Positions 1 through 9,149 of a stretch of 64,000 nucleotides of DNA are shown here, piece after piece; the first letter of the stretch is position 1, and each line of letters opens with the position of its first letter. Location of the stretch: positions 1 to 64,000 of the forward strand of contig PHDD01000016.1 in assembly GCA_002840905.1 (NCBI GenBank). Direction: 5' to 3'. The stretch comes from Bacteroidetes bacterium HGW-Bacteroidetes-4 (GTDB lineage: Bacteria; Bacteroidota; Bacteroidia; Bacteroidales; SZUA-534). Under the pieces are notes generated by a model, which was given only the letters and a program-made list of their open reading frames with translations, did not search any database and was not told the origin of the DNA. Position numbers and translations under genes: made by a program.

Positions 1-74
1 CGGTGGGTCGGTTCCACCATCTCAATTAAAGCATGCAATACTATTTATTGCCGAAATACTGCTTCTTGGCACAC

Positions 75-193
75 ATAAGCGTAGTGCGGGATTGCAGAGC
101 TATTAATTGTCTGTCCAGCGCAAAGTTTATAAGGAGCAAAAATTCTCATTTTCAGTTGATCAGCCCGCATTACGCTTATACAATGTTGGGGCA
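75..193. repeat. Inverted-repeat boundary element, left copy
   Basis: A structured spacer just beyond the 3' end of the big helicase gene. Arms at 75-90 and 164-179 are reverse complements at 15 of 16 positions (ATAAGCGTAGTGCGGG / CCCGCATTACGCTTAT). The outer motif AATGTTGGGGCA at 182-193 is found again, inverted, at 5091-5102 on the other side of the helicase gene (11 of 12). Long imperfect hairpins whose outer ends pair across the cargo are the layout of integron attC sites, or of terminal inverted repeats. No long ORF fits the spacer. The structure is seen directly; the recombination role is inferred. Confidence 0.6.
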
Positions 194-201
194 TCGTGCT
201 T

Positions 202-3200
202 TTATTCTTCATTCTGTTGTTTCTCAAAGTAAAGTTCCGGTAAAACAATTTTCACCTCGTGTTCTGCTCCTTCTTTCAACCAGTAAACAATAAAGTTTAC
301 TTTCACATTCTTCAGTTTATAATTCTTCTCTTTTAAGCTCTCAATTTGTCTCAAAAAGTGCTGTGAAAATTTCAAAACTGATTGTCCGTTTGAGTTCAAA
401 CATTCATCACCATTCAAAGTCAAAACATCCCCACTCATGAGTTGAGAAAGCAAATGCTGTCTGTTTACGAAGTAGTCAAGCCATACATCTTTGTAAGTCA
501 AGTGCATTGCCAACTCCTTTGGCGGAAGGTAAATTTCTCTGTCCTCAATTCGTTCTAAATTTTCTGCCAAAAAATTGTCAAGAAAATTTGAGTTAAGATG
601 CACAGTTAAATTCTGTTTGGCTCTTGTCATGGCAACATACAACTGTCGCTTAGCTTCGTCTGTTATGGGGTTGAAATTTTCAAGCATTAAAAAAACGTTG
701 TCAAACTCTTTACCTTTTGCTTTATGAATAGTTGAAACGAATATTGTTTCACCATTCTCGTTGAAAAAATCTTCAAGTTTGGATTCGCGAATGAAAGCTT
801 CTAAATCGGACTTGTATTTCTTCTTTGGATTGGTCGCTTCAAAATCTTTGATGATGTTGTTGCATGCTTCAAATTTTGTGCTGTTGCGAAACTTGTTTAT
901 TAATTCCCGTTTAGCATTTGCCCAAATATCATCGCTAATAATGAAAACATCTTTATCCAAATTGAGTAAGCTCAAAAAAAATCTGACTTCCAAAAGATTA
1001 TACAAACTGAAACCGTCATTCGTCTGAATCAATTTCGCCTGCATATCATTTTTTAAAAGTAAACCTGTAATTTGAAGTGCTTCCTCATTTGTTTTTGTAA
1101 GCACACATGTAGTGCCTGTCAGTCCAGTTTTAAGTAAGTCATGTACAAGCGGAGTAATGAGATTCCCACTTTGATACTGAACCAGTTTTATTATTCCATT
1201 GTCGGTTTGTTTGGCAATAATTGGAATGTCCTTTAAACGGTGATGAATTCCTGTTACATACTGATTTGTAAAATCAACAAGGTTGCTTTTGCTTCTGTAA
1301 TTCTCAACTAACTCATGTTTGACCGCCCTGTTCACTTGAATAAACTGCTCAAGATATTTTGAACTTGCTCCTCTGAACTCATAAATATTCTGGTCGTCAT
1401 CACCAACTGCAATTACTCGCATTTCCTCGTTCTGTTCCATCAAGGCATTTATCAGGTTGAATTCATCTTCATCCATGTCCTGTGCTTCGTCAATCACCAA
1501 AACGGTTTTTGTAATTCGACTTGGCTCAACTTCTCTACTCTTAATTTTATCAATCGTTTTTTTCAAAATCGCATCTGACTTTTCCAAGCTGCCAACCTTT
1601 CCCAATAAGTCAAAGCAATAGGAATGAAAGGTTTTTATTTCAATATAATTTGCGGCATTGCCAATCAGTTTTAGTAAACGCTTTTTGAATTCTGTTGCTG
1701 CCGCTCTTGAAAAAGTCACCATAAGCAACTGCTCATGTTTTACATCTTCCATCAAAAGCAGTGAAGCCAGTTTGTGAACCAATACTCTTGTCTTTCCACT
1801 CCCAGGCCCGGCAGCTACAACAATGTGTTTTGTTTCATTGTCATTTATGATTTTCAATTGTGTTGGCGAAAGTTCTCCGAAAAGTTGTCTGAACTTGGCA
1901 GGTGTTAAGTTGCGTTTGATTTCATTCTGACGGTTGCCTTTAAAATATTTATTGAGAAACGATTGATAGTTGAGTTGAAAATAGTCTTCTACAAATTGCA
2001 AAGCATCTTTGTAGTCGCTTATCATTTTCTTGGCATACTCGCCAACAATATGAATTTGTTGAACCTTGTTTTCGTAAAACTGATTCAGCTTTTGATAATC
2101 TTCAACTTTATAGCGTTTTTTGTTGTCTTGTTCAACTCGTTCAATAGTAAGTCGGTTATAAACAACAAGAAATCCCCCTTCGATTTTGATTGCCTCAATC
2201 CTTGAAAGGTAAAAGAGTGAATCCTCAATATCATCGATACCAATATCAAGTTTGAAAAGACTTTGATGATTTTCATAAGCGGCTTTTAATTCGTGAACTG
2301 AAAACTCAACTAATACTTCTTCTTTTTCAACTTCATCTTCGGTTACATTCAAATTACTCTTCTCATGAAGGTGTTCTATAATAAATTTAGCCAACTCATG
2401 CCGCTTCTCTAATTTATCTTTTAGTACTTCCTTTGGATGAAGTGAAATAGCTGCAATATGGTTCTTTGAGTATTGAAGGTTCTTTTGATTTATCCAATTT
2501 TTGATTGCCCAAAAATTGATGAGTGTTTTTATCTTATTCGGAGACACATCATCACACCCATTTTGCTCAGCTTCTTCATTCAGTTCTTTGATATGAAATG
2601 TTTTTTCCTGTTCCTCAAAAACTGACAAAAGAAAATTTTCAATTTTGCCAAATGATTCAACAATATTGAGAGAGCGATTTTTGTTTTCGCCTTTTTTGAT
2701 GAAGGCAGTCAAATCCTTTGCATCAGCCAAAATCTTTTCTTCACGAAGAAGATTCACAATGTTTATCACTTCTTCTTTCACAATTCCCAAGTGATCGCTG
2801 ATGTAGTCAATTCTTGATTCAGCAGGATCGTCATTTGACTGCTTTCTGCTTTTGCTTGAAAAAAGTTTCTTAATGATTCGGATTCCATTTTCTTTTTGCT
2901 TTTCTTCAAATCGTTCTGAACCATTGATTTTGTCAATAGCTTCTTGTGCATTCTTTGAAAGGATACTGTTTGCAAAAATTCTCGGCATATTTTGCCCTCG
3001 TTTTAAATACCCCGCATCTTCTAAGGCTGCAATAGCTGTTGTTACTCTGGTTTCAATTTCAACTACATTATCGTCCCAGCCTGCTTTTCGTGCAATTTCT
3101 AATGCAGAGTTTGAAACTTTTGAACGGAATCTAGTAATGTCTTTTATCGCTTTCCAGATTTGCTGAATCTCTTTGATTGAAAGTTTCGTTTGGTTCAATA

Positions 3201-5028
3201 GAATGAAATGTTTACTTAAGTCTTCTTCGTTGAACAATACGAAGCAGTCAGCAACAATATTTTCATCTCTGCCGGCTCTTCCTGCTTCCTGAATGTAGTT
3301 TTCAAGTGAATCGGAAATTTCATAATGAACCACCATACCAACGTCTTTTTTGTCAACTCCCATTCCGAAAGCAGAGGTTGCCACCATAATTTGGGTTTCA
3401 CCGTTGATAAATGAATCTTGATTTTCGGACTTCTCTTGTTTGTCCATCTTTCCATGGTAGGGTTTGGCATTAAAACCATCCTTGGTTAGTCGCTCTGCAA
3501 GCAGATAGGCTTTTCTGGTTCTTGAAACATAGATTATAGTCGGACAATTCTTCTCCTCAATCAATTCTCTTGCTGCCTGATATTTTTCTTCCTCGTTCCC
3601 CTTTTCAAAAACTTTGTACTGAAGATTTGTCCTTGATGCTTTGGATGTATAGAGCTCAAGGTCAAGAGAAAGCTTTTCTTTGAAGTATTCGCGAATATCT
3701 TCAATCACTTTCTGTTTTGCAGTTGCGGTAAAACACGAAACAGGAATGCCATCCTCAAGATTTTTCTTCTCCTGAAGTTGTTTAATGAAATCACCAATAT
3801 ACAGGTAGTCAACTCTAAAATCTTGACCCCATGAAGAAAAACAGTGTGCCTCGTCAATAACAAAACGGACAATCTTTCTACCCAAAATCAATCGTTCAAT
3901 TGTCTTTGAACGAAGTGATTCAGGCGAGATGTAAAGAATGGTTGCTGAACCATCTTCTACTCGTTCAAAAGATTTAGCTCTTTCAATCGGGTCAAGTAAA
4001 CCATTTATGGTTACCGCTTCTGTAATCCCTATTTTTTCAAGATTGTCAACTTGGTCTTTCATCAGCGACTGCAAGGGAGAAATCACAACCGTCAAGCCCT
4101 TGGCAGCTTCACCACTCATTAATGCAGGAACTTGAAAGGTAATTGACTTTCCGCCACCAGTTGGAAAAACTGCAAGTATCGATTTGTTGTTAATGGCTGC
4201 CTTAACCGCTTTTTCTTGGAGTGGCTCGCCTCCGTAAGTTCTAAACGAATCAAAGCCAAAAAACCTTTTCAATCCTTTATTAACGTCTAAGACGTTGTTG
4301 CAATACTCACAACCACTGATACAAGGCTGATTTCGCAAGCGAAACATGATTCTTTCAACTTCTGGATAATTTTTCAGTACCCAAGGTGGTGTGATTGAAT
4401 GAATTTTTTTGTGTTCAATGAAGGAGCTTACAAGCGATAAGCAGTAAGCAAGTTCAATTGGGTTTTCTGAAATTATTTTGGAAAGGTCAACTTGTTTGCA
4501 AATTTCATTTTCAAATTTTTGGTGAATCAATTTTTCAAGGTCCTTGGATTCACTTGTGTATGCTATGAAACGAAAAAAGGAGTGGAACTCCTTTTTATCA
4601 TACAGAAGCAAATAGAAAATTTGTTTAAGCGTTTCGTTAGTCTGTTTGAACGCTGCAACTTCATCATAGAACAAATCTTTTGCCTTGATGGAATCATTCA
4701 ATGGATTGTTTATGTCTTCTGATTGAAGCTTATCGTCTTTCAATAAAGAATGATAAGGTCTGGTCGGAAAAAGCAAGGGAGAAAGAAACAACGTGTCAAT
4801 GACGTTTGTAGAATTTATTCCAGCATCAGTGATTGCTTTACCAATATACTTTATATCGTGATTAAAAATGTTGTGTCCGCAGATGAAGCGTGTTCCGTTT
4901 AGAAACTGTATGAAGTCAGCAACCGAAGTTTTGTGAAAGGAACTTCCATCACCCTTAACGCTTCCAATGTCAAGAATCTTTCGGCTCTTTGGCTCAATCT
5001 CGGTATCAATGAATGCAATGGAGTTCAC
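202..5028 (-). CDS. Fused 3'-5' exonuclease / RecQ helicase / UvrD-like helicase
   Basis: A 1608-residue multidomain DNA-processing enzyme. Residues 1-125 form a DnaQ-type DEDD exonuclease: DTE at 8-10, GHNIFNHD ending at Asp58, HSLLKD at 93-98 and NPLND ending at 112. A cysteine cluster (C236, C240, C243) precedes a RecQ-type SF2 motor with Walker A TGGGKS near 290 and DEAH at 392-395, then SAFGMGVDK and QEAGRAGRD motifs. A second, SF1 UvrD/Rep motor follows, with AGPGSGKT near 1075, DEAQD near 1181, GDDDQNIYEFRGA and a C-terminal VAMTRAKQNL motif. The start keeps the exonuclease acidic pair. The gene stands alone between two inverted-repeat elements. Likely roles are repair of recombination intermediates or defence against foreign DNA; neither is proven by sequence. 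Confidence 0.88.
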   Translation of the reverse strand: MNSIAFIDTEIEPKSRKILDIGSVKGDGSSFHKTSVADFIQFLNGTRFICGHNIFNHDIKYIGKAITDAGINSTNVIDTLFLSPLLFPTRPYHSLLKDDKLQSEDINNPLNDSIKAKDLFYDEVAAFKQTNETLKQIFYLLLYDKKEFHSFFRFIAYTSESKDLEKLIHQKFENEICKQVDLSKIISENPIELAYCLSLVSSFIEHKKIHSITPPWVLKNYPEVERIMFRLRNQPCISGCEYCNNVLDVNKGLKRFFGFDSFRTYGGEPLQEKAVKAAINNKSILAVFPTGGGKSITFQVPALMSGEAAKGLTVVISPLQSLMKDQVDNLEKIGITEAVTINGLLDPIERAKSFERVEDGSATILYISPESLRSKTIERLILGRKIVRFVIDEAHCFSSWGQDFRVDYLYIGDFIKQLQEKKNLEDGIPVSCFTATAKQKVIEDIREYFKEKLSLDLELYTSKASRTNLQYKVFEKGNEEEKYQAARELIEEKNCPTIIYVSRTRKAYLLAERLTKDGFNAKPYHGKMDKQEKSENQDSFINGETQIMVATSAFGMGVDKKDVGMVVHYEISDSLENYIQEAGRAGRDENIVADCFVLFNEEDLSKHFILLNQTKLSIKEIQQIWKAIKDITRFRSKVSNSALEIARKAGWDDNVVEIETRVTTAIAALEDAGYLKRGQNMPRIFANSILSKNAQEAIDKINGSERFEEKQKENGIRIIKKLFSSKSRKQSNDDPAESRIDYISDHLGIVKEEVINIVNLLREEKILADAKDLTAFIKKGENKNRSLNIVESFGKIENFLLSVFEEQEKTFHIKELNEEAEQNGCDDVSPNKIKTLINFWAIKNWINQKNLQYSKNHIAAISLHPKEVLKDKLEKRHELAKFIIEHLHEKSNLNVTEDEVEKEEVLVEFSVHELKAAYENHQSLFKLDIGIDDIEDSLFYLSRIEAIKIEGGFLVVYNRLTIERVEQDNKKRYKVEDYQKLNQFYENKVQQIHIVGEYAKKMISDYKDALQFVEDYFQLNYQSFLNKYFKGNRQNEIKRNLTPAKFRQLFGELSPTQLKIINDNETKHIVVAAGPGSGKTRVLVHKLASLLLMEDVKHEQLLMVTFSRAAATEFKKRLLKLIGNAANYIEIKTFHSYCFDLLGKVGSLEKSDAILKKTIDKIKSREVEPSRITKTVLVIDEAQDMDEDEFNLINALMEQNEEMRVIAVGDDDQNIYEFRGASSKYLEQFIQVNRAVKHELVENYRSKSNLVDFTNQYVTGIHHRLKDIPIIAKQTDNGIIKLVQYQSGNLITPLVHDLLKTGLTGTTCVLTKTNEEALQITGLLLKNDMQAKLIQTNDGFSLYNLLEVRFFLSLLNLDKDVFIISDDIWANAKRELINKFRNSTKFEACNNIIKDFEATNPKKKYKSDLEAFIRESKLEDFFNENGETIFVSTIHKAKGKEFDNVFLMLENFNPITDEAKRQLYVAMTRAKQNLTVHLNSNFLDNFLAENLERIEDREIYLPPKELAMHLTYKDVWLDYFVNRQHLLSQLMSGDVLTLNGDECLNSNGQSVLKFSQHFLRQIESLKEKNYKLKNVKVNFIVYWLKEGAEHEVKIVLPELYFEKQQNEE

Positions 5029-5090
5029 GCTCAGTTATTCAGATTCAAATTGTTTGTCATTTTTTAATGTTTCTTTTGTCTTTTTGCATG

Positions 5091-5234
5091 TGCCCCAACG
5101 TTTTGCAGCTACCCGAAGGTGGCGATTTCGAAGCACTTCACTGTCAATCAAGCAGAAACCTTCATAAAAGCACAAAGCTTGATTTAACCACTGAACCGCC
5201 ACTTTTGGGTAGGTGCTGTTACCACGCGTTATTT
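5091..5234. repeat. Inverted-repeat boundary element, middle copy
   Basis: A 144-bp element between the helicase and the DUF5655 gene. Arms 5109-5124 (CTACCCGAAGGTGGCG) and 5197-5212 (CGCCACTTTTGGGTAG) pair at 13 of 16 positions around a 72-bp loop. The right outer motif GTTACCACGCGTTAT (5218-5232) contains the stop codon of the DUF5655 gene and is repeated inverted at 6777-6791 (14 of 15). The left outer motif TGCCCCAACGTT (5091-5102) is repeated inverted at 182-193. Each outer end therefore matches the far end of the neighbouring gene unit, as expected when attC R'' pairs with the start of its own cassette. Confidence 0.62.
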
Positions 5235-6146
5235 TTTGTTTTTCTTCAATGATTGTTTTATTAAACTCATTATATATTCAATGTCTTCGTCTGTTCGTAT
5301 TTGGATTTCATAGTTACCGTTCCCCCAATGTCCAACCGAAGAAACGTCTCTTGTTATTCCTTTTGGGTCGTCAAGTTGTCCTTGTTGAAGGTTAAGCCAT
5401 AATTTCAGTCCGTTTTTTTGAACGTGAACGTCAACAACATTTGAACTTGCTACAAAGGCAACATAAAATTTCTTTGGTTTAACTTCTAAACTGTCAAGAT
5501 TAAGAATGGCACTTTTTACTCTTTCATAAAGTTCCTTTGTCTCTTCTGTCGCTTTCTCTAAATGCTCTTGCTCGGTATAAACTTTGATTTCTCTTGTTAC
5601 CTTTTCAATATTTTCATCTTGCCTGCTTATTGTCTTAACGCTTTCTTGAGCACCCGAAGTTTGAATTTGGTTGTAATTTACAGTCTTATTGTTATAGCGT
5701 TTAATTTCCCAAAGTTCAATTGGCAAGTCTTTAAAATTAATTGCTTCTTTCTGGTAAGTTGTGAAACTTGGTGAAATGAAAAGCACTCTTGATTGTGACC
5801 AATCTATGTCGTCTCTTTTCAGGGTGTCTTTGTTGTTTTCGTTATATTCAAGTATGAAATCTGCTTTATTGTTAAGCATTAATGACAGGTAAGCATATCC
5901 TTGGTCGATTACGCTAAAATTTTTGTCTCTTTTATACTCAATAATTACAAAACTTACCGAGTCTTTGTCAAAAGCCAAAGTGTCAATACGGAAGTTGTTT
6001 AAACCGAATTCAGAACGAACAAATTCAAGTCCGAAAATGGTTTTTATATTCTTTTCTGTCAATTCTTGGATTTCCTTTTCAAGTTTGAATGGAAGTTCCT
6101 TGATTTGTTCTAAGCTGTCGTTATTCTCTATTTTAAAAAGTGCCAT
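5229..6146 (-). CDS. DUF5655-type protein with PD-(D/E)xK nuclease-like N-terminus
   Basis: 305 residues. The first ~120 residues have the order expected of a PD-(D/E)xK nuclease fold: an N-terminal helix rich in Glu, Asp55 in RIDTL, E70-Y-K72 at the end of a hydrophobic strand, and Q82 in the following helix (IDQGYAYLSLM). The C-terminal ~110 residues (LYERVKSAIL, then FYVAFVASSNVVDVHV and LKLWLNL) resemble the DUF5655 domain, often labelled predicted transport protein without support. Start and upstream stop share one base (TAATG at 6146), so it is translationally coupled to the glycosylase-like gene. The stop codon lies inside the middle repeat element. Nuclease activity is inferred from motif spacing only. 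Confidence 0.75.
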   Translation of the reverse strand: MALFKIENNDSLEQIKELPFKLEKEIQELTEKNIKTIFGLEFVRSEFGLNNFRIDTLAFDKDSVSFVIIEYKRDKNFSVIDQGYAYLSLMLNNKADFILEYNENNKDTLKRDDIDWSQSRVLFISPSFTTYQKEAINFKDLPIELWEIKRYNNKTVNYNQIQTSGAQESVKTISRQDENIEKVTREIKVYTEQEHLEKATEETKELYERVKSAILNLDSLEVKPKKFYVAFVASSNVVDVHVQKNGLKLWLNLQQGQLDDPKGITRDVSSVGHWGNGNYEIQIRTDEDIEYIMSLIKQSLKKNKK

Positions 6147-6763
6147 TAAATTTTCATTTCATTATTTAATCCTGCAATAAATTGATTCTTCCCACCATTT
6201 GCAGGGTGTCTTACATAAGAGCTTTGGATTCCTATGTCAGATAATTGTGATTCAGGTTTCCTGCCTAAAGCTAATATTTTTTGGATTTCAAAAATTTCTA
6301 ATAAATCAATAAGAAAACTTTTTCCTTCTTCGAGTTCTGTCTGATTTGGTGTTCTGTTAGTTTGAATGTCGTCAGACGAATGTGGGTGAAAGGGAAAGAT
6401 ATTCCAAATCAGAGGCTTTTCTTTAAGTCTAGATAATTCAGACCATACAATAGTTGCTGAAATTTCACTTTCAAGTTTACCTTGTTCATTTATAAACTGA
6501 ATTGGTTCATTTTTAAAGAAAGGATTTTCAAATAGCACTTTTTCGCTTGTAAATGCAATTCCCGAAAGTCTACAACCTTTGTAACCTGGTGCTTCTCCTA
6601 AAATTAAAAATCTCGGATTAACAGTCTTCATTTTATTCAGGTAAATTCTCAAGTTGTTTTTTCTTATTTCACTTTCTCGACTGTTACCAAAGTAAAGGTT
6701 AGTCGTCCCGTTTGTTTTTGGAATACTTGAAAGTCTTGATATGAAAGTGTCAATTTTATTCAA
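6146..6763 (-). CDS. Uracil-DNA glycosylase superfamily-like protein
   Basis: 205 residues with the UDG-fold landmarks: FLILGEAPGYKG (about 52-63, motif 1, water-activating loop), then LSGIAFTSE, a central WNIFPFHPH segment, and near the C-terminus ILALGRKPESQL followed by a SSYVRHPANGG loop comparable to the motif-2 His loop. Members excise uracil or other modified bases; some distant members have been reported in phage defence. The first gene of a two-gene unit, it overlaps the DUF5655 gene by one base, suggesting a glycosylase-nuclease pair. A repeat element lies immediately upstream. Substrate cannot be read from the sequence. Confidence 0.78.
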   Translation of the reverse strand: MNKIDTFISRLSSIPKTNGTTNLYFGNSRESEIRKNNLRIYLNKMKTVNPRFLILGEAPGYKGCRLSGIAFTSEKVLFENPFFKNEPIQFINEQGKLESEISATIVWSELSRLKEKPLIWNIFPFHPHSSDDIQTNRTPNQTELEEGKSFLIDLLEIFEIQKILALGRKPESQLSDIGIQSSYVRHPANGGKNQFIAGLNNEMKI

Positions 6764-6776
6764 TTCTGTGTCTTTT

Positions 6777-6859
6777 ATAATGCGTGGTAACTACAAGATA
6801 AACTCACCCCGACTCCCTTTATCCACCCAAATTTGGTTGGATAAACGCACCCAGGTGCG
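6777..6859. repeat. Inverted-repeat boundary element, right copy
   Basis: A spacer upstream of the glycosylase-like gene. It begins with ATAATGCGTGGTAAC (6777-6791), the inverted counterpart of 5218-5232. It also holds a 28-bp near-perfect palindrome at 6818-6845 (26 of 28, core TCCACCCAAATTTGGTTGGA) and a short hairpin CGCACCCAGGTGCG at 6846-6859. The internal structure differs from the other two copies, so only the outer motif links it securely to the set. It could also contain the promoter of the leftward two-gene unit. Confidence 0.5.
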
Positions 6860-6989
6860 GTTATTTCTATTATAGTTGCAGTTTGGGTTCATGTTATTTT
6901 GGTTTCAGTGTATCAAATATAAACTTTTTATTCAGAGAACAGGTCTATTGGAAAGGTAAATTTAGTTAACGGGTTTAGCAAAGTCCAGA

Positions 6990-7047: not shown

Positions 7048-7740
7048 TTATTCTTCATCGGCATTCTCCTCTTCGTCAGTTTCATAGGCTCCCCGTAAAT
7101 CAACAATTATCCGGGCAGCTTTATACTCATTGTAAAACACAGGCTCCTGCTCCTTAATCACCAGCATCAGTTTGTCCATTTCATCGTGCAACAACAAACC
7201 CACTTCCTTAAAAAGCTCCTTTAGCCGATGGGTGGCAGTGCTTCGGGCAACAATGGTGGTGCGTGGCTTGGCTATCAGTGCGGCAAAATCATCAATCTCT
7301 TTTTGTAATCCGCTGATAGTCTCCGGAAGCAAGCCATAAGGAGCCACTGCTTCTGCATCCAGGCCACTGGCAATTTGGAGAATCCGCCTGCAGCGATTCA
7401 GTAAGCTGCTGTCACCCTGCCTTTTTAAGTACCAGGGCGAGACCTTTACCTCTTCTTGTAGTTCCATATTCTTTTGGTTCGTAGCATACACGTAAATTGC
7501 CGCTGCAACGCGCAGGGTAATTTCTATCATTTCAGCTTCTTCCTTTTGCTTTTGCAGGGTAGTTCCGATGGACTTTCCTTCCTGAATTAGCTGAACTTCC
7601 TTTATTTCTTCCAGCAGTGCCATAAATCGGCTTACAACAGCTGCCAGTGCCGGCACAAGGGCCAGCTTCGCTTCATATTTAGTCAATACAATAGCCATGG
7701 CTAAATATGAAGACAATTGATTGCTTTGTTTTCGTTTCAT
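7048..7740 (-). CDS. Uncharacterised helical protein
   Basis: 230 residues, function not recognised. The sequence is almost entirely helix-forming, with an N-terminal MKRKQSNQLSSYLAMAIVL stretch, a charged heptad-like middle (QKQKEEAEMIE), a conserved-looking LIAKPRTTIVARSTAT segment and LMLVIKEQEPVFYNEYKAARIIVDLRG before a very acidic tail. There is no convincing signal peptide or membrane span. The pattern is familiar from uncharacterised Bacteroidota proteins, but I cannot name a family. It is single, with its own terminator, and separates the accessory island from housekeeping DNA. Confidence 0.7.
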   Translation of the reverse strand: MKRKQSNQLSSYLAMAIVLTKYEAKLALVPALAAVVSRFMALLEEIKEVQLIQEGKSIGTTLQKQKEEAEMIEITLRVAAAIYVYATNQKNMELQEEVKVSPWYLKRQGDSSLLNRCRRILQIASGLDAEAVAPYGLLPETISGLQKEIDDFAALIAKPRTTIVARSTATHRLKELFKEVGLLLHDEMDKLMLVIKEQEPVFYNEYKAARIIVDLRGAYETDEEENADEE

Positions 7741-8165
7741 TTTGTGTGATTTTAGTTATGGACTAAATAGTTCGGGAAACGCTTACTAAATTAAACCAAT
7801 TCCTCCAAAAATACAAGAGGCAAAAACATGTTTCTGGTCACATATCCACCTGACAATTAACCTACTAACTAAGGCGTAATCCGGTTTTACATCTGGCATC
7901 CCTCCCTTTTTCCAGTCGCCAAAACGGCATTAAATTACCTGCCAGGGGCAGCTTTGTGATAAGCTGTGCTAACCTGTGGTAAACAGAAATAATATGCAGT
8001 AACCAATAAATGGTCATTGGCTTGCAGTTCAGCCTTCCGTGTTTCGTATCCCCTGTGCGTTAAACACAACAGGGTTCCGGCTCAATCCATTGCAATTTTC
8101 TTTAGTATTCAGTCTTCATTCTAAAGTACAGTATCTTCTGTTCTTGTGTCTAAATGCTTACCATC
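7741..8165. other. Non-coding stretch before the tandem repeat
   Basis: No convincing gene. It should hold the promoter of the leftward gene starting at 7740, but no clear -33/-7 pair was found. Reading frames here lack family features and codon character. Confidence 0.4.
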
Positions 8166-8455
8166 GGGTTTTGCACCTCCTGCCAAAGGGTTTGCGCTAT
8201 ATTCCCTTCAATTTGCGCTACCGGCCGATGGGTTTGCGCTACATTCCCTTCAATTTGCGGTACCTGCCGAAGGGTTTAAGCTGCATTCCCTATAATATGC
8301 GCTACCGGCCGAAGGGTTTGCGCTGCATTCCCTTTAATATGCGCTACCGGCCGATGAGTTTGCGCTACATTCCCTTCAATATGCGCTACCTGTCGAAGGG
8401 TTTGCGCTACATTCCCTTCAATATGCGCTACCTGTCGAAGGGTTTGCGCTGAATC
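8166..8455. repeat. 42-bp tandem repeat array, about 6.5 copies
   Basis: Units begin at 8188, 8230, 8272, 8314, 8356, 8398 and 8440 (partial), exactly 42 bp apart, with a degenerate half copy from 8166. Each unit contains TTTGCGCTAC twice about 21 bp apart (a TTCCCTTCAATTTGCGCTAC half and a CCGGCCGATGGGTTTGCGC half), so it is a doubled 21-bp unit. Because 42 is a multiple of 3, frames stay open: rightwards it would give a 14-residue repeat around LRYIPFNMRY, leftwards one around AQTLRQVAHIEGN. Copy three has TTTAAG instead of TTTGCG, which introduces a stop in the leftward frame. It does not look like CRISPR because there are no unique spacers. Confidence 0.85.
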
Positions 8456-8669
8456 CATGGCCATATGCGATAAATCGTTGTCAGTATGCGCTGGCATCGA
8501 AGTCCCGGTTCTTAAGTCTTCTGTCATACGTCTTGGGTTTACCATCGATATTCTAACCATCAATTTCCCTCTTGCCAACATTACAATTTCCACAGCAAAA
8601 GGCACCCTGTAACAAGTCCGCATAAACATTTTGCCCCGCTCCTTGTTTTTCTGTTCAAACACCAAAATC

Positions 8670-9149
8670 ATGCGGAAGCAAAGTAATTTATTAAGCAACA
8701 CGCTTGTCGTTATATCGATTGTATTATTAAGTACCCCAGCTATGAGTCAGGATAAAGTCTACCGTAAATTAACTCCCGAAGAAACCCGGGTTATCATCCA
8801 TAAAGGAACCGAGATGCCCTATACCGGTGCCTATTACGCCACCAAAGAGCATGGTACCTATGTATGCCGGCAATGCAATGCAAAACTGTACCAATCGGAC
8901 GATAAATTCGACAGTCATTGCGGCTGGCCCAGCTTCGACGATGAAGTTCCGGGAGCGGTTACCCGGGTTCCCGATGCCGACGGCCGGCGGACCGAGATTA
9001 TTTGCACCAACTGCAAAGGACATCTGGGCCATGTTTTTTTAGGTGAAGGATTTACTCCAAAAGATACCCGGCATTGTGTCAATTCCATCTCCCTGCTTTT
9101 TATTCCCGACAGCGTTCAAACCGAAAAAAAAGTAGGTACTTCGCGTTAA
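8670..9149 (+). CDS. msrB: Peptide-methionine (R)-S-oxide reductase, exported
   Basis: Reduces methionine-R-sulfoxide in proteins. MsrB signatures are complete: the first zinc-binding pair CRQC, HCGWPSF, the second pair CTNC, GHLGHVF, and the catalytic cysteine in RHCVNS near the C-terminus. I start at 8670 rather than the in-frame ATG at 8631 because MRKQSN followed by a hydrophobic run ending at PAMSQ makes a clean signal peptide. The enzyme should therefore act in the periplasm, repairing oxidised envelope proteins. About 159 residues, a normal single-domain size; no MsrA partner in the window. Confidence 0.93.

Follow-up and report, generated by a model that had tools for sequence, protein, structure and literature searches.

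The left end of the window, the 64-kb stretch analysed here, holds two gene units bounded by structured spacers, and the question it raises is whether each unit is a mobile cassette and, if so, which enzyme would move it. The window belongs to contig C21 in a 4.3-Mb draft assembly, which 66 matches to the Por-secretion tail place in Bacteroidota. Sequence comparisons indicate that the two units are very probably cassettes of an integron-like site-specific recombination system. We propose that a cassette would consist of one gene unit plus one attC-like hairpin, that a tyrosine recombinase related to XerA and IntI would cut attC at G|TT on its folded bottom strand, and that the cut cassette would be joined either to a second attC or to an attI-like site. 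With joining at G|TT, the outer 15-nt stem would re-form only in a circle that brings together both ends of one cassette. The window array would start at a dispersed attI-like site (6791) and comprise two cassettes, the second attC being broken by a repeat. We infer that the enzyme of this reaction is a recombinase encoded on contig C15 next to another attI copy, and that it would work by single-strand chemistry, through circular intermediates and in trans.

Gene units and their ends in the window

Read leftwards, the order is a 230-aa gene (7048-7740), element C, cassette 2, element B, cassette 1, element A and the contig end; both cassettes with their genes, the three elements and the terminal repeat are on the minus strand. 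Cassette 2 (5099..6790; 1,692 bp; TTACCAC...GCGTGGTAAC-attC B-G) encodes a 205-aa protein of the uracil-DNA-glycosylase (UDG) superfamily (6146..6763; PF03167, E 9e-9) and a 305-aa DUF5655 protein (5229..6146; PF18899), the latter matching the PADLOC candidate defence protein PDC-S18 (PDLC04945, 468 bits). Cassette 1 (75..5098; TTGGGGCA...TGCCCCAAC-attC A), delimited by its end motifs and by matches at both ends to the covariance model R1 described below, encodes a 1,608-aa fusion of a RecQ-like and a UvrD-like helicase (202..5028; PF00270/PF00271 and PF00580/PF13361), whose match to defence helicases is confined to the helicase domains. Relatives of the window UDG were found in 2 of 295 genomes, neither of them in a detectable cassette. 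No empty site for the window array was found in the genus, the relatives being without the window flank.

The ends of cassette 2 are inverted copies of each other: GTTACCACGCGTTAT (5218-5232) and ATAATGCGTGGTAAC (6777-6791) match at 14 of 15 positions and have the C·A pair at position 11 that is typical of the site family. When the 64 kb were scanned for GTT plus 12 nt against 12 nt plus AAC, this pair was the sole 11/12 closure outside the core, with a few others scoring 10. Closure of cassette 1, whose attC is cut, is weaker; TGCCCCAACGTT and AATGTTGGGGCA have the 9-nt core TGCCCCAAC in common and pair further if one base is bulged, with 6/12 matching ungapped. The outer motifs to which the earlier note drew attention, around the helicase and around the glycosylase/DUF5655 pair, are correct in position and letters, and the internal hairpins it described are real. 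Own matching inverted ends for each unit, and an IS-like repeat adjoining site A, might also suggest a transposon-like family with terminal inverted repeats, each unit being moved by a DDE or HUH transposase. This is highly improbable, as the ends differ between the units and match only within a unit, the window units hold no transposase, and the sites have a conserved GTT core and are of attC and attI type.

Under the cassette reading, elements B and A are attC-like sites. Site B (5095..5224), with R'' at 5218-5232 and R' beginning at 5099, folds on its bottom strand (z = -3.2), and the predicted energy of the cassette 2 site changes from -24.8 kcal/mol in the linear form to -37.4 kcal/mol when reconstituted (bottom strand; z -7.3). 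The model R1 was built from relatives of site B, which itself scores 129 bits. Site A (75..193), although absent from the training set, is detected by R1 (35 bits, E 1e-5, match 56-191), and its arms (75-90/164-179) are 94% complementary. No curated Rfam model matches at E up to 1. Element A, which had been counted as one more structured spacer, is incomplete: its right arm stops at base 75, and bases 1..74 are the terminal part of a multi-copy repeat, which is found again at the ends of contigs C7, C16 and C37. Of these four repeat copies, three lie within an attC right arm, each in the same position, after CTTAT (target-like CTTAY). The repeat is probably an insertion sequence, and its position is as expected of one that prefers attC. 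The end common to all four copies is GTGTGCCAAGAAGCAG..., and the body of the repeat is unassembled.

Element C (6789..6921) is of another kind. The earlier note had grouped three like elements; A and B do belong together, but C as a third attC was rejected, since it gives no match to R1 and the homology of its copies stops at GTT. It is instead a left attI-like half-site, conserved as ...GGGTGAGTTTATCTTGTA|GTT, where we infer a crossover between G (6791) and T (6790). It is present at about eight places in the genome, the other copies being on contigs C7, C17 (two), C28, C34, C37 and C38; homology ends at or next to ...TTATCTTGTA|GTT, with unrelated DNA beyond. At four loci (C7, C17, C21 and C37) the GTT of the attI-like copy closes with an attC-type end at 11/12. 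A terminator-like palindrome in element C (6777-6900) falls in the left half of the attI-like repeat. Several additional features of this repeat were observed: the window segment (6792-6921) and its copies have two direct copies of about GGGTGCGTTTATC, and several copies have an inverted pair, GATAAACGCA-6 nt-TGCGTTTATC, that resembles a Xer-type 10-6-10 site. Short tandem-repeat stretches that are open in several frames (window 8039-8701; L272 5434-5996; L275 5124-5640) sit between a few hundred and some 1,500 bases upstream of three of the attI-like copies.

A family of attC-like sites in Bacteroidota

Other families of the order have relatives of site B at 70-78% identity, in which conservation spans AAC to GTT and goes no further. 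Compensatory changes are seen in 14 of the 19 stem pairs across 17 elements. R1 yielded 99 matches in 41 loci, mostly arrays of a single polarity, and in a survey of 198 sampled genomes of Bacteroidota, R1 sites are present in 103, organized in head-to-tail arrays. They occur beside many unrelated genes, an observation that the earlier note had set out as a test, and its suggestion that the sites are degenerate is replaced by a coherent family across the phylum. AAC/GTT and mostly TAAC/GTTA are kept in the R box, and the outer letters differ between cassettes; the R box consensus of integrons is RYYYAAC / GTTRRRY. A metagenome-assembled genome titled Desulfobulbaceae (G508, locus L209), in the same phylum sample as the window genome, has about 11 to 13 R1 sites; its title is probably wrong, and it cannot serve as an outgroup for R1.

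Statistics over many arrays bear out the proposal that R'' pairs with the beginning of the cassette to which it belongs. For 42 unselected neighbouring elements, the start after the GTT of one and the end before the AAC of the next match at 7.5/12, as against 4.14±0.25 for permuted end pairs (0 of 20,000 permutations reach the observed value) and 4.5 for the two ends of one element compared with each other. An independent set was collected with an internal 20-mer. Of its 56 elements, 31 close at 10/12 or better with a partner that lies upstream on their own strand; the corresponding controls are 0/34 downstream, 1/56 on the opposite strand and 0/56 with the end of another element. The sequence before the closing GTT is either an attC right arm or attI-like. 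Median length among the 149 closed cassettes is 952 bp, and the longest open reading frame points towards attC in 136 of 144; since this list was chosen by end match, these figures describe the cassettes and do not test them. These comparisons bear on a reading of the hairpins as transcription terminators or structural intergenic elements whose end matching is coincidental. The elements are indeed intergenic and fold, and element C has its terminator-like palindrome, but the ends match across a gene and not within an element, the arrays have one-strand polarity, and gain and loss occur precisely at GTT (see below), so that the probability of this explanation is close to nil.

The cassette ends also have a strand signal. 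Among 29 reconstituted circle sites, picked because their ends match at 10/12 or better, position 11 is C on the left and A on the right in 28; this is a mismatch on the top strand and a G·T wobble on the bottom strand, and the bottom-strand fold is the more stable one at all 29 (by 4.6 kcal/mol on average). When all elements are considered, the right +11 position is A in 70 of 76 and the left -11 position is C in 65 of 87. A long end match as a feature unique to the Bacteroidota family was rejected, as a 12-nt match is found in class 1 cassettes too, with perfect pairing at 11 in the three cases seen; what sets the family apart is the fixed C·A at 11 and a match that reaches 15 nt.

The recombinase associated with the arrays

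The earlier note saw no integrase, and this is correct for the 64-kb window, as it is for tyrosine recombinases on the whole of contig C21; a candidate is, however, encoded on contig C15 of the same genome, a 482-aa tyrosine recombinase beside an attI-like copy, with the last 34 nt of element C recurring 68 nt behind the gene. The genome also encodes XerD and a XerC-like protein. CALINs are defined by at least two attC sites without a nearby integrase, and this label, offered previously, fits the window with its sites A and B.

At about ten loci in other genomes, a GTT comes after the recombinase gene, mostly within ~23-210 nt, and forms a closing match with the first attC of the array. The recombinase was detected in 70 of the 198 genomes, 61 of which have R1 sites, compared with 42 of the 128 genomes without it (p = 5e-14); these 42 have sites without a detected recombinase, and the co-occurrence may partly follow phylogeny. 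On 20 of 22 shared contigs the nearest array is headed by the recombinase, which is co-directional on 18; it is divergent in four of the shared-contig cases and also in genome G045. In the array of that genome (L045, contig C48, 364-8269) most genes and the recombinase (266 aa) run against the attC direction, as in phages.

The closest sequences to the array recombinase are XerA (5hxy) and a XerC-like structure, followed by Vibrio IntI (2a3v); it differs from XerA, XerC and XerD in its array adjacency and often in a long N-terminal extension. IntI proteins are marked by scores above the TIGR02249 cut-off and by the I2 insertion before patch III. The recombinase at L003 scores 187.8 bits against TIGR02249, under the cut-off of 265, and the IntI stretch of ~40 residues is present in two canonical IntI proteins of related genomes and absent in the array-linked recombinases. 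Lack of this insertion weighs against the integron-like explanation, in which recognition of folded DNA by the enzyme is putative.

Could these be ordinary cassettes moved by a true IntI with the I2 insertion, the Xer-like recombinase being a hitchhiker? Genome G006 encodes a canonical IntI (470 bits; L125 8676-9641) whose gene shares contig and strand with an R1 site, and class 1 cassettes follow the same closure logic over 12 nt. Furthermore, IntI1 recombined one site (attC2) of Polaribacter phage P12002L, giving recombinants from the bottom strand only (PMC9892861). Against these stand the rarity of IntI, the cut-off being exceeded in only 2 of 60 relatives and not in genome G000; the Xer-like family, which adjoins the arrays and tracks them; the lack of an R1 match at four canonical integron loci; and P12002L itself, which is not a significant R1 member (best E 0.13). 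We regard this alternative as unlikely, and the IntI in G006 implies that more than one enzyme may use such sites.

Cassette gain and loss and the relation to integrons

Returning to the integron-like system with its own recombinase, cassette gain and loss can be seen in near-identical phages. Baltic Flavobacterium phages contain about 11 closed cassettes, and hemulen6-1 is without an annotated integrase. The compared stretches of sniff9-1 and sniff9-2 are identical save for 439 bp; hemulen6-1 and stinky9-1 differ by 1181 bp, including a methyltransferase gene, mumin6-1 and mumin6-3 by 506 bp, and snork6-1 and snork6-2 by 342 bp. In all four pairs both breakpoints lie in GTT, with 6 to 12 nt common at the breaks, always including GTT, so that units are missing precisely between matching ends, as the earlier note had proposed to look for. 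These events do not point to a particular enzyme, and their falling four times at exactly the GTT core makes ordinary recombination among short GTT repeats an unlikely cause. Arrays with DNA methyltransferase cassettes were noted in hemulen, sniff, snork, stinky, mumin and lillamy phages (L295 = MN812208.1, 1.9-9.9 kb; L296-L305), and the array genes of the Flavobacterium phages run against the attC direction. Methyltransferase content has been linked to plating efficiency (PMC7077304).

Plasmids also carry such arrays. In the complete plasmid of Chryseobacterium sp. SNU WT5 (L293, NZ_CP041688.1, 1-17075) a recombinase gene is followed by a cassette array, which is broken by two well-known kinds of integron invader, an IS110 transposase gene and a group II intron. 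The conjugative plasmid pEMTOL01 of Emticicia oligotrophica (L291, NC_018742.1) has at least three clear sites beside the kwaA/kwaB defence genes. Of 124 scanned cassette proteins, 5 are DNA cytosine methylases, several match defence models and most are assorted; the defence-type cargo includes DNA methylases, the PDC-S18 protein, SLATT and restriction proteins.

These arrays share with class 1 and sedentary chromosomal integrons and with CALINs folded attC-like sites with AAC...GTT ends, an end match that is confined to the cassette, head-to-tail order, an attI-like site, a tyrosine recombinase adjoining the array, a bottom-strand bias and breakpoints at G|TT. In the Bacteroidota arrays the R''/R' complementarity would be restored only in the cassette circle, an attI-like site lies next to the recombinase gene and ahead of the first cassette, and whole cassettes are gained and lost at G|TT. 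The earlier integron reading is largely right, with ends joining at G|TT and A (truncated) and B as attC-like hairpins; as the enzyme is not an IntI-family integrase, we consider this a variant of the integron kind and not a strict member. It differs from integrons in having a recombinase without the IntI insertion, mostly upstream and co-directional, in a site family absent at the four canonical loci, and, in the window genome, in one recombinase with many dispersed attI-like sites. On balance, we cautiously favour a distinct, phylum-wide Bacteroidota integron class, in which a Xer-like recombinase without the IntI insertion would act on folded attC sites, with strand choice set by a conserved C·A/G·T pair, and would serve in trans several attI sites dispersed over one genome, and cassettes would be exchanged with plasmids and enzyme-less phages.

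Integrons have been listed for Bacteroidota (PMC9668308), and IntegronFinder 2.0 named a single complete integron in Bacteroidetes proper, in Salinibacter ruber (PMC9024848). CALINs are already known from phages. The P12002L CALIN, in a phage of a Bacteroidota host, resembles the Flavobacterium phages in having attC arrays with DNA methyltransferases, and those phages are absent from the main text of that paper (PMC9892861). No description of the site family, its partner recombinase family, the dispersed attI copies or the strand signal was found in the open-access literature; the phylum-wide family, the IntI-less recombinase and the dispersed attI sites look new, whereas the integron logic is known.

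Defence genes and others appear to be shuffled by a recombinase other than the classical integrase, and even to reach plasmids and phages in this way. If the sites are used, a system of integron-like exchange has gone mostly unnoticed in a very common phylum, in about half of the genomes sampled, and its cargo, defence-type among many other genes, would be common to plasmids and phages. It would also raise the question of how single-stranded hairpins are dealt with by a recombinase that lacks the IntI insertion. The Baltic Flavobacterium phages, in which cassette-borne methyltransferases come and go, provide a ready test system.
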